Assembly: GCF_001687585.2 (NCBI RefSeq)
Contig: NZ_CP016537.2
Location: 1,274,001-1,338,000, forward strand
Length of the DNA: 64,000 nucleotides
Direction of reading: 5' to 3'
Origin: Planococcus halocryophilus
GTDB lineage: Bacteria; Bacillota; Bacilli; Bacillales_A; Planococcaceae
How positions within the stretch are numbered: the first letter of the stretch is position 1; each line of letters starts with the position of its first letter. A program made the translations under genes and the position numbers. This document shows positions 883 through 62,301 of this stretch, piece by piece. The notes under the pieces were generated by a model, which was not told the origin of the DNA, made no database searches, and was given only the letters and a program-made list of their open reading frames with translations.

Positions 883-1058
883 TTTTATTTGCGGGATGGG
901 CTTGGTTGTTTGCAGATTCGAATAGTTTGTTTGCGTAAAAGCATGGATTGTTTGCAGGATAGGAGTTTATTTGCAATATAAAGCGGTTTGTTTGCAGCGG
1001 TGGGGGAGTTGTTTGCAGGATAGGGCGCTTTGTTTGCGCAATAACATAGTTTGTTTGC
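883..1058 (-). repeat. Array 1 of 21-bp phased GCAAAYAA repeats
   Basis: On the minus strand nine copies of GCAAACAA or GCAAATAA follow one another. Measured on the plus strand, the TTTGC cores start at 888, 909, 930, 951, 970, 991, 1012, 1033 and 1054. Every step is 21 bp except one of 19. The 12-13 bases between cores are variable but tend to end in a pyrimidine-rich ATCCC/ATCCT. The array fills the gap between two facing terminators. Because 21 is a multiple of three it stays open in several frames and yields spurious ORFs full of ANK/CKQ/RKQ heptads. I do not recognise it as a named element. Confidence 0.9.
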
Positions 1059-1074
1059 GTATTCCAAAAACGAA

Positions 1075-1115
1075 AGAAAAAACCTCCCAAAACCTTGAAA
1101 GGTTTTGGGAGGTTT
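1075..1115 (-). terminator. rpsD terminator
   Basis: A 15-bp stem (AACCTCCCAAAACCT and its complement) with loop TGAA, followed on the minus strand by a T-rich tract. It lies 18 bases beyond the rpsD stop codon. Confidence 0.88.
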
Positions 1116-1132
1116 TCGAAATCAAGTTGGAA

Positions 1133-1735
1133 TTAACGTGAGTAGTACTCAACGATCAACTGTTCGTTGATTTCAGCAGACAATTCGCTACGCTCTGGAA
1201 GGCGTACGAAAGTTCCTGTTTTGCTATCAGTATCGATAGTAACGTATTCAGGAACAAAGTTGTTTACTTCGATTGCTTCGTTTACTACATCAAGGTTGCT
1301 TGATTTTTCGCGGAAAGCAATTGTTTGTCCTGGTTTCACGCTGAATGACGGAATGTCAACGCGTTTGCCATCAACAAGGATGTGGCCGTGGTTTACGATT
1401 TGGCGAGCTTGGCGACGAGTGCGCGCAAGACCTAAACGATAAACAACGTTATCAAGGCGAGCTTCAAGAAGGATCATGAAGTTTTCACCGTGTTTACCAG
1501 GCATTTTACCAGCTTTGTTGAACAAAGTTTTGAACTGACGTTCTGTAACTCCGTACATGAAGCGTAGTTTTTGTTTTTCTTGTAGTTGCAAACCATATTC
1601 AGAAACTTTTCTGCGTTGGTTAGCACCGTGTTGACCTGGTGCGTAAGGGCGTTTTTCTAATTCTTTACCTGTGCCTGTAAGGGAAATTCCTAAGCGGCGT
1701 GACAGTTTCCATGATGGACCTGTATAACGAGACAT
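1133..1735 (-). CDS. rpsD: 30S ribosomal protein S4
   Basis: Primary 16S rRNA-binding protein of the small subunit body, needed early in 30S assembly. The 200-aa product has the typical S4 start ([16 protein letters not shown]), the N-terminal domain with RPYAPGQHG, and the S4 RNA-binding domain around residues 92-155 ([34 protein letters not shown]). Length matches the family. A GGAGGAG Shine-Dalgarno lies just upstream of the ATG. The gene is monocistronic, with its own promoter, a long leader and a terminator. In Bacillus, S4 represses its own translation through this leader. Confidence 0.98.
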
Positions 1736-19925: not shown

Positions 19926-19967
19926 ACACTCCTTAGTTTTTTAGAGAGGGAGTTTGCGAACCTCTTT
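19926..19967 (-). promoter_or_regulatory. PreQ1-I riboswitch
   Basis: On the minus strand AGAGGTTCGCAAACTCCCTC is followed by an A-rich strand and AACTAAGGAG. This matches the type I preQ1 aptamer, an H-type pseudoknot with stem P1 AGAGG / CCTCT. The Shine-Dalgarno AAGGAG of queC is part of the 3' end, so ligand binding would hide it and lower queCDE translation. Confidence 0.93.
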
Positions 19968-20034
19968 AACGAACAGCATTAATAATAACATATCCACCTA
20001 TAAAAAGAAGGCTTCAAATATCGTCTTTAAGTAG

Positions 20035-56944: not shown

Positions 56945-57112
56945 ATACTATGAATAAGGTTATAGAATACTTATATGTGCAAGCAGGAGCACCCGCTTCT
57001 CACCTGATCGACCGATTGTTGGCAGGTATACACGATTGACTTTTACACGCAGAAAGACGCGTGTTGTCATATTTGCGGGTGAACCTCTGAGGTTCACCCG
57101 CTTTTGTTTTGA
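56945..57112 (+). promoter_or_regulatory. L20-type leader of infC-rpmI-rplT
   Basis: A ~200-base structured leader precedes infC. It ends in a strong terminator hairpin, GCGGGTGAACCTC / GAGGTTCACCCGC followed by TTTTGTTTT (57073-57110). Upstream segments such as AGCACCCGCTTCTCACC (from 56988) could form a competing pairing. In Bacillales, L20 binds this leader and causes premature termination. TTGACA (56923) with TACTAT at 56946-56951 is a likely promoter. Confidence 0.8.
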
Positions 57113-57186
57113 TCGGAACCCTGTAAACCGGTTCGGCCGGTTCACACATTTAAGCTATTCGCGACACTATCCGGAGGTGGATTACT

Positions 57187-59962: not shown

Positions 59963-61051
59963 ATGACGAAATTGGATGAAACACAATTGATGTTAAAAGA
60001 ATTGACTGATGCTAATGGCATTCCAGGAAATGAACGTCAGTCACGTGAAGTTATGAAGAAATACATAGAACCATATGCCGACTCAATTGAAACAGACGGT
60101 CTTGGAAGTTTAATCGCCAAAAAAGAAGGATTAGCTGATGGACCCAAAATTATGGTAGCAGGTCATTTAGATGAAGTTGGCTTTATGATTACGCAAGTGG
60201 ATGAAAAAGGCTTTTTAAAATTCCAACCGGTAGGCGGCTGGTGGTCACAAGTCATGCTAGCTCAACGAGTTACCATTACGACTCGTAAAGGTAACGAAAT
60301 TACGGGCGTAATTGGTTCTAAACCGCCACATATTCTAACTCCCGAAGCACGCAAAAAACCTGTTGAAATTAAAGACATGTTTATTGATATCGGTGCATCT
60401 TCACGTGAAGAAGTAAAAGAATGGGGCATTACGCCAGGAGATATGGTTACACCATATTTCGAATTCACAGTAATGAACAACGACAAACTGTTGATGGCAA
60501 AAGCTTGGGATAACCGCATCGGTTGTGCCATTGCGATCGACGTGTTAAAAGGACTTAAAGGCGTTGACCATCCGAATGTAGTATACGGAGTGGGAACAGT
60601 TCAAGAAGAAGTCGGCTTGCGCGGGGCAAAAACAGCAACCGCTAAAATTCAACCAGATATCGGTTTCGCAGTTGATGTAGGGATCGCTGGAGATACACCA
60701 GGAATTACAAGCAAAGAATCGAACAGTAAAATGGGCGATGGTCCGCAATTATTGCTTTTCGATGCTTCTATGGTAGCGCATCGCGGCTTGCGCGAACTTG
60801 TGGTCGACACAGCAGAAGAAGCGGGCATTCCGTATCAATTTGAAACGATTGCAGGCGGAGGAACAGATGCCGGATCGATTCACTTAACAGCGAACGGTGT
60901 TCCTGCACTCGCAATCGGTGTAGCTACACGCTATATTCATTCGCATGCAGGAATCCTGCATCGAGACGATTACGAAAATGCAGTAAAATTAATCATCGAA
61001 GTGATCAAAAAGCTCGACAAAGACACAGTCGCGCGTATTACATTCGAATAA
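59963..61051 (+). CDS. ysdC: M42 family aminopeptidase (YsdC-like)
   Basis: Dinuclear metallo-aminopeptidase of the M42 (PepA/TET/FrvX) family, probably a large cytoplasmic oligomer trimming peptides. Motifs: [10 protein letters not shown] (His-Asp), [25 protein letters not shown] (catalytic Glu pair), [13 protein letters not shown] and [14 protein letters not shown]. 362 aa. AGGAGG precedes the ATG. Some M42 members have been annotated as endoglucanases; the motif set argues for peptidase. A terminator follows and runs directly into array 2. Confidence 0.93.
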
Positions 61052-61052
61052 A

Positions 61053-61086
61053 ATCGGAAAACCCTTCGCCTCGGCGAGGGGTTTTT
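61053..61086 (+). terminator. M42 peptidase gene terminator
   Basis: Stem AAACCCTTCGCC / GGCGAGGGGTTT with loop TC, followed by T. Confidence 0.85.
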
Positions 61087-61093
61087 GTGTTTT

Positions 61094-61203
61094 GCAAACA
61101 AAGTGGTACTTTTTGCAAATAAAGGCTCCGTTGCCGCAAACAAACTGCAAGATTGTGCAAACAACTGTGTGTATCTCGCAAACAACTCACTCTATCACGC
61201 AAA
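61094..61203 (+). repeat. Array 2 of 21-bp phased GCAAAYAA repeats
   Basis: Six cores beginning GCAAA start at 61094, 61115, 61136, 61157, 61178 and 61199, each exactly 21 bp apart. The first five read GCAAACAA or GCAAATAA; the last is decayed to GCAAAGAT. The first core lies eight bases after the T run of the preceding terminator. Bases between cores vary freely. Orientation follows the upstream gene. Confidence 0.92.
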
Positions 61204-61219
61204 GATCCAAAGGTTTTTC

Positions 61220-61239
61220 GCTTTTCGCTTGCGAAAAGC
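61220..61239. repeat. Perfect inverted repeat before the NERD gene
   Basis: GCTTTTCGC-TT-GCGAAAAGC, nine pairs, just downstream of array 2. About 40 bases later TATACT (61278-61283) could be the -10 of the NERD gene. Possible operator or hairpin. Confidence 0.6.
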
Positions 61240-61309
61240 ATCCATTATTAGAGATTTTCAGGTTTTCAAAAGAATGCTATACTCTATTTATTCTGATAGG
61301 AGGTGCTCT

Positions 61310-62272
61310 ATGCATAAAAAAGAACTCGTTTTACTGTCACAAATAGAATCGCTCGAAAGACTGTTATACCGGTTGCCTGAACATCATCCACAACGCCAAT
61401 TTCTTCAAGTCGAGTTGTACCGAAGTGCTGCAGGAAAAAGAGGAGAAGACAGACTAGCACGGAAACTAGTTGAATTTAGTCCAGAAGAAAATCACCGCTT
61501 TTTGAATAATGTTTGCTTGTCACTTGGCGATTGGAAAATCCAAATAGACGGATTATTGCTGACAGAACGTGGAGCGATTATTATTGAGTCGAAAAACATT
61601 AGCGGTCAACTTTATTTCGATCATCAAACAGGCGAATTTGCCCGTACGGATGGAGACGGCCTAAGAACGGTGATGGAAGATCCCACGATTCAATTAAACA
61701 AAAACATTCGCTTTATAACAAAATTCTTCAAACTGCATAAAATCCATATGCCGATCAAAGGAGTTGTCGTTTTTACTTCTAAACAATGTGAATTTATTAC
61801 GAAACCACAAAATAGAACGGTTTGCAAAATTTATCAATTGATCGATTATCTATTCAATATACTCAACTCTTTCCCCGACATGAATAACCAACCCAATTTG
61901 TCGAAAATCGATAAACTTCTTCAAAAACATCAAACTCCTTATAAACGACTTCCTTTATGCCAGTTGTATGCTATAGTTTCTACTGAACTAAGGACCGGAA
62001 TTTTTTGTGTTACTTGCAAAAAACATCAGATGATTCGAAAATCTCGGTGTGGCTGGATATGCGAGTTATGCCAATCGGTAGATCCACTCGCATTTGAAAC
62101 TTCGGTTCAAGAATATTTTTCACTCATTCATCCGCAGCTGAGTAATAAGCAGTTGAGGCAGTTTTGCAATATCGCATCGCCCTATGTAGCTTCTCGCTTG
62201 TTGGCAACTTTTGATTTTGAAACGGTCGGAGCATTACGCAACCGAACCTATCACTTAAAGAATAAAGACTAG
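61310..62272 (+). CDS. NERD domain protein with C-terminal zinc ribbon
   Basis: A 320-aa protein with a nuclease-related domain: GKRGEDRLARKL, then QIDGLLLTERGAIIIESKNISG, which carries the Asp...Glu-x-Lys pattern of restriction-endonuclease-like folds. The C-terminal third has a probable zinc ribbon, CVTCKKHQMIRKSRCGWICELC. DNA or RNA cleavage is expected from the fold but not shown for most NERD proteins. AGGAGGTG precedes ATG 61310. It lies alone, with a 21-bp phased array on each side, each beyond a terminator. Confidence 0.87.
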   Translation: MHKKELVLLSQIESLERLLYRLPEHHPQRQFLQVELYRSAAGKRGEDRLARKLVEFSPEENHRFLNNVCLSLGDWKIQIDGLLLTERGAIIIESKNISGQLYFDHQTGEFARTDGDGLRTVMEDPTIQLNKNIRFITKFFKLHKIHMPIKGVVVFTSKQCEFITKPQNRTVCKIYQLIDYLFNILNSFPDMNNQPNLSKIDKLLQKHQTPYKRLPLCQLYAIVSTELRTGIFCVTCKKHQMIRKSRCGWICELCQSVDPLAFETSVQEYFSLIHPQLSNKQLRQFCNIASPYVASRLLATFDFETVGALRNRTYHLKNKD

Positions 62273-62301
62273 CTTTTCACTCAGGTGAGAAGCTTTTTTT
62301 G
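62268..62301 (+). terminator. NERD gene terminator
   Basis: Stem AGCTTTTCAC-type, AAGCTTCTCACC reading from the other strand, pairs as AGCTTTTCACT / AGGTGAGAAGCT, followed by seven T. It overlaps the stop codon. Confidence 0.8.

Follow-up and report, generated by a model that had tools for sequence, protein, structure and literature searches.

GCAAAYAA arrays of Planococcus halocryophilus and a NERD-domain protein proposed as their partner

Tandem arrays of the octamer GCAAAYAA (class A) occur at three sites in the window, the whole stretch of 64,000 nucleotides of Planococcus halocryophilus DNA that was analysed, and the NERD-domain protein encoded between two of them is proposed to be the cognate protein of the GCAAAYAA arrays, the array behind rpsD being a dispersed copy; a probability of roughly 0.7 is assigned to this reading. 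The broader proposition that NERD genes and arrays are partners is held with high confidence, and it is concluded that the two together make up a nuclease-plus-array system not described before, which resembles RAYT-REP in organisation but has another enzyme and non-palindromic direct repeats. NERD is a widespread bacterial domain, the function of which was described in 2022 as being without experimental study (PMC9040797, in the part of that paper available). No report that pairs NERD genes with cognate repeats was found in the literature searched, and the statement of the first-pass annotation that no described element has this form held for the open-access literature, most subscription journals being outside reach.

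Array anatomy, distribution and gene context

The array behind rpsD (array 1) had been annotated as nine cores at a 21-bp pitch with one 19-bp step, and every position and step was found again on the minus strand: nine exact cores start at plus-strand positions 885, 906, 927, 948, 967, 988, 1009, 1030 and 1051, the steps being 21, 21, 21, 19, 21, 21, 21 and 21 bp, and the array begins about 20 nt past the T-run of the rpsD terminator. The terminators that were said to face each other across this array fared differently: that of rpsD was confirmed, but the opposing hairpin with a T-run on the strand facing rpsD (at about 823-857, placed by eye) was scored at -20.4 kcal/mol in one scan and was absent from a stricter scan. 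Arrays 2 and 3 (Table 1) each follow directly behind a terminator. The window contains 34 GCAAAYAA octamers, compared to a mean of 13.45 in 100 shuffles (standard deviation 3.65, largest 24).

Table 1. Coordinates of arrays and associated features in the window
Feature	Position	Strand	Remarks
Array 1, nine GCAAAYAA cores	885..1058	-	pitch of 21 bp with one 19-bp step; in the sense of rpsD
rpsD intrinsic terminator	1078..1117	-	stem 1117-1078; from terminator scan
rpsD (ribosomal protein S4)	1133..1735	-	gene 5' of array 1
M42 peptidase gene	59963..61051	+	on the 5' side of array 2
Intrinsic terminator	61057..61086	+	directly ahead of array 2
Array 2, five GCAAAYAA cores	61094..61185	+	pitch of 21 bp; upstream of the NERD gene
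Palindrome CTTTTCGCTTGCGAAAAG	61221..61238	+	between array 2 and the NERD gene
Promoter-like site	61255..61283	+	ahead of the NERD gene; 9/12 matches, TG before the second hexamer; consensus match only
NERD-domain gene (320 aa)	61310..62272	+	between arrays 2 and 3; assigned by Pfam
NERD gene terminator	62271..62294	+	directly ahead of array 3
Array 3, five exact cores and one GCAAAAAA	62308..62420	+	pitch of 21 bp; directly 3' of the NERD gene

Internal units of the P. halocryophilus genome share roughly ATYSC-GCAAAYAA-A/C, and the unit of Neobacillus novalis is ATTC-GCAAATAA-A. Because approximately ATYSC before the core and A or C after it are common to internal units, the recognised motif is estimated at about 13-14 bp, which amends the earlier description of a core that is kept between 12-13 bases that are not: the core is indeed kept, but the bases that flank it are also common. 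Among the arrays inspected, those at different sites of one genome have their dialect in common and mostly not their spacers. Over 203 arrays, a set that includes matches in other phyla and is biased in that most loci were found by a 21-bp pattern, the steps are 21 bp (686), 20 bp (114), 19 bp (9), 22 bp (7) and 23 bp (3), plus double steps.

Arrays are free of stop codons in some frames, as seen in a spurious ORF of 100 aa at 788-1090 on the minus strand and in the start of the NERD gene in the ORF list, which is falsely extended through an array (61085-62272 on the plus strand); such arrays are likely to be a source of misannotated small proteins. The only matches at Rfam gathering thresholds in the window are L20_leader and PreQ1, both away from the arrays (a PreQ1 riboswitch and an L20 leader, above gathering scores at 19927-19970 and 56975-57115), and Rfam offered no characterised repeat class at the arrays themselves.

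In the P. halocryophilus genome, 44 pairs of GCAAAYAA are spaced at exactly 21 bp and the reversed-pattern control has 0. Throughout the order, 87 of 261 genomes, in 11 of 19 genera, contain such a pair, compared to 21 genomes for the reversed control, and arrays of this kind are present in Planococcaceae and Bacillaceae. Within the genus Planococcus a pair is present in 37 of 46 genomes, of which lone pairs may be due to chance or coding. Planococcus, Neobacillus, Gottfriedia, Fictibacillus and Filobacillus are among the matches listed by a three-core scan of named genomes, as are Metabacillus, Ureibacillus, Lysinibacillus and Cytobacillus. A viral origin of the arrays was rejected: 24 viral stretches have the three-core pattern, and of the 18 stretches with listed arrays 17 have them inside called ORFs, most being near-identical repeats. 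The Spirochaetaceae bin Pc512_bin53 (L105, L117, L121, L127, L128, L139, L161) contains many 21-bp GCAAAYAA repeats with near-identical spacers, e.g., GCAAACAAACTTATTTTGCTG, and these are probably another kind of repeat.

Planococcus and Bacillaceae together gave 104 GCAAAYAA arrays. A gene was called 5' of 102 of them, and it runs in the sense of the array in 93 of the 102 (81 of 90 once look-alike neighbourhoods were collapsed). Genes were called to either side of 97 arrays; in 88 of these the 5' gene shares the sense of the array, and among the 88 a terminator-like hairpin lies between gene and array in 48 and beyond the array in 12. Pfam matched 18 of 20 array 5' genes, to unrelated housekeeping and metabolic families; 10 of 30 rpsD loci were left out because the C-terminus pattern did not parse them. 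Isolated sites near a regulator gene were considered and rejected: singletons, at 10 matches outside arrays, are about equal in number to the 8 control matches.

NERD genes, their proteins and their core dialects

By a uniform rule, an array adjoins the gene in 79 of 95 NERD loci (67 downstream, 50 upstream), which are not independent in that many are orthologues and two (L396, L397) are one genome met twice, compared to 5 of 205 control genes, all taken from 15 stretches of the P. halocryophilus genome. Four of the five control-gene arrays are genuine GGACAGT arrays. Among the NERD loci, some three-unit array calls (e.g., L389, L392, L395) look doubtful. The same rule found no array at 16 of the 95 loci; a further 5 of 100 loci (L374-L377, L399) were dropped for having no tblastn match to the class A NERD protein, and may represent other NERD architectures. 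Setting aside the 21 class A orthologue loci (L272-L292) leaves 63 of 74 loci with an adjoining array, and none of 475 Markov-resampled pairs of flanks yielded an array call. An independent periodicity score was at least 34 on one side in 65 of 95 NERD loci and in 11 of 276 control 3' flanks, of which 10 come from stretches chosen for holding class B arrays. All 38 loci with an array on each flank have the cores of the two arrays in the same orientation.

The linkage extends to 40 further Planococcus NERD loci, where arrays adjoin most genes, the cores differ and 34 loci score at least 30 on one side, and to genera other than Planococcus, where 15 of 25 NERD loci reach 34 on one side. Arrays of the GCAAAT type adjoin NERD genes in Neobacillus soli (L380), Bacillus sp. 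UNC438CL73TsuS30 (L381), Gottfriedia luciferensis (L383) and Cytobacillus firmus (L384). At L380 and L381, which have Neobacillus-type NERD genes, CTGATAAA arrays lie upstream and CAAATAAA arrays downstream, making two dialects per locus. The search used found up to 11 NERD relatives per Planococcus genome and none in 5 of 46, and Bacillus subtilis, one of 14 control genomes, is absent from those with a NERD match. The palindrome at 61221-61238 is of the type CTTTTCG-N-CGAAAAG, which is present in 36 of 70 Planococcus NERD loci, in 0 of 25 in other genera, and nowhere in 300 kb of other stretches of the P. halocryophilus genome; it is possibly a third component of NERD loci.

The window NERD protein matches Pfam PF08378 at 63.9 bits (cut-off 22.1), and the NERD domain was recognised in 10 of 10 paralogues, with no Y1_Tnp domain in these or in the window protein. 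Across an alignment of 66 NERD proteins, G45, E46, D80, K95, C251 and C254 never vary; position 93 is acidic, E or D, in 64 (E93xK95 in the window protein), and in the Cys4 zinc ribbon C233 is kept in 64 and C236 in 63. A search of the PDB by sequence gave no match to the NERD protein up to an E value of 1. Its structure model (pLDDT 94.3) had Bax1, Can2 and the R2 protein among its top Foldseek matches in the PDB, all above an E value of 0.001; these entries are PD-(D/E)XK nucleases. The best match among viral models was a phage NERD protein (E value 3.6e-7), and for six NERD proteins PADLOC and NCBIfam returned weak matches only, to PglW in one of the six and to MAD6 in two. From the conserved residues, the NERD active site is probably PD-(D/E)XK-like and competent.

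Different NERD lineages have different cores, namely GCAAAYAA, GTTCATGTAA, GGACAGTATTT, CGTGCGTATTT, ATTCGCTAATAAA and others, with at least 14 core dialects and their proteins counted by eye. NERD identity co-varies with core similarity over 64 loci (Mantel r 0.56, with 0 of 2000 permutations as high), in part owing to common descent of orthologous loci. The NERD genes of the GGACAGT lineage in genomes G080 and G081 (L350, L360) are flanked by GGAAAGTATTT instead, and GGAAAGT arrays elsewhere in these two genomes, predicted from the NERD flanks before the search, were then found. For GGAAAGT, G080 has 11 pairs, G109 has 6 (and, by coordinates, a NERD gene beside a GGAAAGT array) and G081 has 5; the remaining seven genomes of the search have 0-1. 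With the pattern reversed there were 0 in G080 and G109, 1 in G081, and 0-1 overall except for 3 in G088, so that 5-6 pairs are a modest count where a genome is draft or distant. Pairs of GGACAGT number 40 in the P. halocryophilus genome (G000), 52 in G084, 51 in G088, 36 in G105, 22 in G101, 10 in G116 and 0 in G096, and only 4 in G080. The median number of class A pairs is 12 in the 21 genomes with a class A NERD orthologue versus 1 in the 25 genomes that have none (P = 7e-5). Exceptions are nine Planococcus genomes that keep the orthologue with only 0-7 GCAAAYAA pairs, their cores being partly relaxed, and G094, G104 and G116, which have 12-23 pairs and no listed NERD protein at 60% identity or more. 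In the Neobacillus paralogues, two bases of one frame differ (ATTCGC-AA/CG/TG/TA-ATAAA).

Conservation and chromosomal placement

When orthologous arrays of the P. halocryophilus genome were compared with those of six relatives, core sites differed less than spacer sites in all six: 11 of 334 versus 83 of 454 (G086), 8 of 174 versus 62 of 215 (G084), 9 of 216 versus 113 of 278 (G088), 5 of 160 versus 83 of 218 (G105), 10 of 129 versus 79 of 175 (G115) and 30 of 238 versus 134 of 330 (G080), the core rate being somewhat lowered by picking cores in the reference only, but hardly by the factors seen. The most variable core position is Y (34 of 154). As judged from these alignments, class A cores are under strong purifying selection and spacers drift, in line with the selection on the core that the first-pass annotation had supposed. 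Its companion claim, that the spacing is selected as well, is plausible: almost all steps measure 20-21 bp, but alignment gaps are less frequent in arrays than in flanks for G086 only, and are not rarer in the other five of the six species. At the sites of arrays 2 and 3, eight "active" genomes have core-to-spacer diversities of 0.09 and 0.03, compared to 0.48 and 0.44 for another eight genomes, in which arrays occupy the same sites and are eroding, figures that leave out L286, an unparsed locus among the nine of the eroding group. The eroding group is made up of nine Planococcus genomes (L282-L289, L291) in which the NERD frame is open, and active-site residues are kept in both of the NERD proteins examined from it (L282 and L288).

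Two other classes were counted in the P. halocryophilus genome: class B, TTACATGAACTTT (in sense orientation GTTCATGTAA) at 21 bp, with 88 pairs at up to two mismatches, and class C, GGACAGTATTT, with 40 exact GGACAGT pairs at 20-22 bp, the control being 0 for each. Because CGTGCGTATTT and GGACAGTATTT cores keep the 20-21-bp pitch with no A-tract in them, the phased A-tract curvature that had been offered as an explanation of array 1 is disfavoured. Class C, at 11 of 21 array calls, has no gene-sense bias, and that of class B is weak, at 9 of 13 distinct arrays, so a single function for all classes is unsupported.

Judged by GC skew in 20 sampled stretches and the window, the origin lies near 0 and the terminus near 1.7 Mb. 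Distance from the origin differs between classes A and C (P = 0.017, from 7 and 12 clusters), and class B arrays make up two belts, one at 0.59-0.62 Mb and the other at 2.62-2.72 Mb, at similar distances from the origin on both arms. Measured as distance from the origin, clusters lie nearer to their own NERD gene than random in class A (P = 0.048), class B (P = 0.003) and class C (P = 0.018), with only 6, 3 and 11 clusters, respectively, in the test. Class B arrays at L061:460-880 (624.5 kb in G000) and at 2.62-2.72 Mb in G000 are organised in higher-order periods of about 102 bp, each made of five units, which is a sign of recent tandem growth.

Interpretation and comparison with known systems

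In the proposed mechanism, the NERD protein would recognise its own core in duplex DNA with one protomer per unit, and the two-turn pitch would place the protomers on one face of the helix as a cooperative row. Direct binding of DNA by the NERD protein is considered probable; the platform for an oligomeric protein that the first-pass annotation suggested draws its support indirectly from the linkage of array classes to NERD-domain genes, and DNA is favoured over RNA as the target since class C has no sense bias. In certain circumstances the protein may nick or cleave DNA within arrays or close to them, and repair could then spread the arrays locally, as is thought to occur for RAYT proteins with REPs. 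Such spread by nuclease action, for which the odds are put a little short of even, fits both the clustering of classes near their own NERD genes (in few clusters) and the RAYT-REP precedent. Binding at old dispersed sites would probably be useful, or its loss harmful, because the cores there are still selected. For class A the likeliest use would be a barrier or boundary behind terminators, a tentative suggestion prompted by the position of these arrays behind gene ends and their running with the gene.

A mainly selfish RAYT-like system, with a NERD nuclease that cuts and spreads arrays and with any host function minor, would account for a gene by its cognate repeats, for dispersed extragenic copies and for several classes per genome; abundance that follows the gene and dialects that switch are features also of RAYT-REP (PMC3116915, PMC3686654, in the parts available), and the nearness of class A, B and C clusters to their own NERD genes, few as the clusters are, agrees with it. 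Gene conversion, however, would homogenise spacers too, and the old orthologous sites keep their cores while their spacers diverge; purely selfish spread leaves this per-site core conservation unexplained, no recent new insertion was caught, and the odds on this explanation are put at about three to one against. The selected cores beside unrelated genes would be expected if the arrays were a sink or self-mark that holds each NERD nuclease on host DNA, every core being weakly selected wherever it lies, a doubtful explanation with which the conserved active-site residues, the indifference of class C to orientation and the NERD-like stretches in phage-defence proteins (weak matches, PglW 1/6 and MAD6 2/6) are also consistent; a sink or self-mark would leave unexplained the class A sense bias (93 of 102) and the genomes that have few arrays although they keep NERD.

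Linkage alone cannot prove binding, and a few genomes hold arrays with no matching NERD gene, as would be so if some other factor bound the arrays and NERD genes merely travelled with them or inserted into them; this is improbable, in that a separate factor would be needed for each NERD lineage, with dialects that shift as NERD does. A transcription signal read by a universal factor, either Rho loaded on sense RNA or NusG pausing on the antisense TTNTTT (in TTRTTTGC), would suit class A arrays, which follow gene ends, run with the gene and have the NusG motif in their reverse complement, TTNTTT being the pause motif of NusG in the available part of its description (PMC12288461). Rho, however, is encoded in 259 of 261 genomes whether arrays are present or not, TTNTTT is absent from both strands of the cores GGACAGTATTT, GTTCATGTAA and CGTGCGTATTT, and class C has no gene-sense bias, which makes such a signal very improbable; as candidates in their own right, Rho was rejected on its indifference to arrays, and a NusG pause array was rejected because its motif fits the antisense of class A only and not every class. 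A coding repeat or an ordinary tandem duplication has next to no probability: the 21-nt unit does help to keep the 100-aa frame of ORF 788-1090 open, but steps of 19, 20 and 22 bp break the frame, GCAAATAA in 20-bp arrays puts a stop in it, and spacers differ where cores do not. A minisatellite or simple tandem repeat was rejected on the same difference of spacers inside arrays, in which they are unlike most of the other-phylum matches.

If the proposed pairing of the NERD protein with its arrays is true, the readable DNA target would make the function of NERD directly testable, and the pairing would account for extragenic repeats that ORF listing takes for small proteins. It is conceivable, though unlikely, that NERD proteins and arrays form widespread orthogonal DNA-recognition systems in Bacillales, with several paralogues per genome, a separate core for each and, in the classes that were counted, dozens of chromosomal units; the arrays would hold or direct the nuclease on the chromosome of its host, whether to mark self against foreign DNA or to arrange chromosome regions, the latter in view of the different distances of the classes from the origin and the two belts of class B.

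Iterons and plasmid centromeres (ParR/parC) are direct repeats of about two helical turns that receive a row of protein; NERD arrays differ in being spread over many places in the chromosome, behind unrelated genes. The direct-repeat sites of LytTR type, to which a LytTR regulator binds, have a pitch of 21-22 bp. The eukaryotic protein roadblock terminators, TTF-I at Sal boxes and yeast Reb1, are binding sites behind gene ends, as class A arrays would be. The DUS/USS uptake-sequence dialects are short, species-specific extragenic motifs that are non-tandem and have no flanking partner gene, whereas NERD arrays are tandem and paired with a flanking gene. A CRISPR array has near-identical repeats of about 23-50 bp and unique spacers of similar size, in contrast to the NERD-array cores of 8-14 bp with a free part of 5-13 bp. 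Within the NERD family PF08378 itself, staphylococcal SmdA has the same domain, but differs from the array-associated proteins: it has a membrane helix, functions in cell morphology, and is missing several residues that are among the best conserved in NERD (PMC9040797, from the part available).

The closest likeness is to RAYT-REP, in which, according to the available parts of its descriptions (PMC3116915, PMC3686654), cognate repeats flank a nuclease-type gene, copies are dispersed and extragenic, several classes occur per genome, class abundance follows the gene, and orthologous genes can have different repeats ("orthoswitch"). Likewise, the NERD gene lies among its cognate repeats (79 of 95 loci, on both sides in 38), and class abundance tracks the NERD gene, for class A with the exceptions of G094, G104, G116 and the nine-genome group, and for class C in its dialects. 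REPs, however, are palindromic with a GTAG/GTGG-type tag, and their enzyme is a Y1/HUH transposase, whereas NERD arrays are tandem direct repeats of non-palindromic 8-14-bp cores at a 20-21-bp pitch, and the enzyme is a NERD protein, probably PD-(D/E)XK-like, with a zinc ribbon. Six NERD-array cores of 8-16 bp have 0-6 self-complementary positions, and the sense RNA of array 1 folds no better (-16.2) than resampled sequence (mean -14.1, standard deviation 5.8). Since neither palindromic repeats nor a Y1 transposase was found, the NERD system would work somewhat like RAYT-REP and not be a member of it, which would mean that a nuclease-repeat partnership in the style of RAYT-REP arose with an unrelated enzyme.
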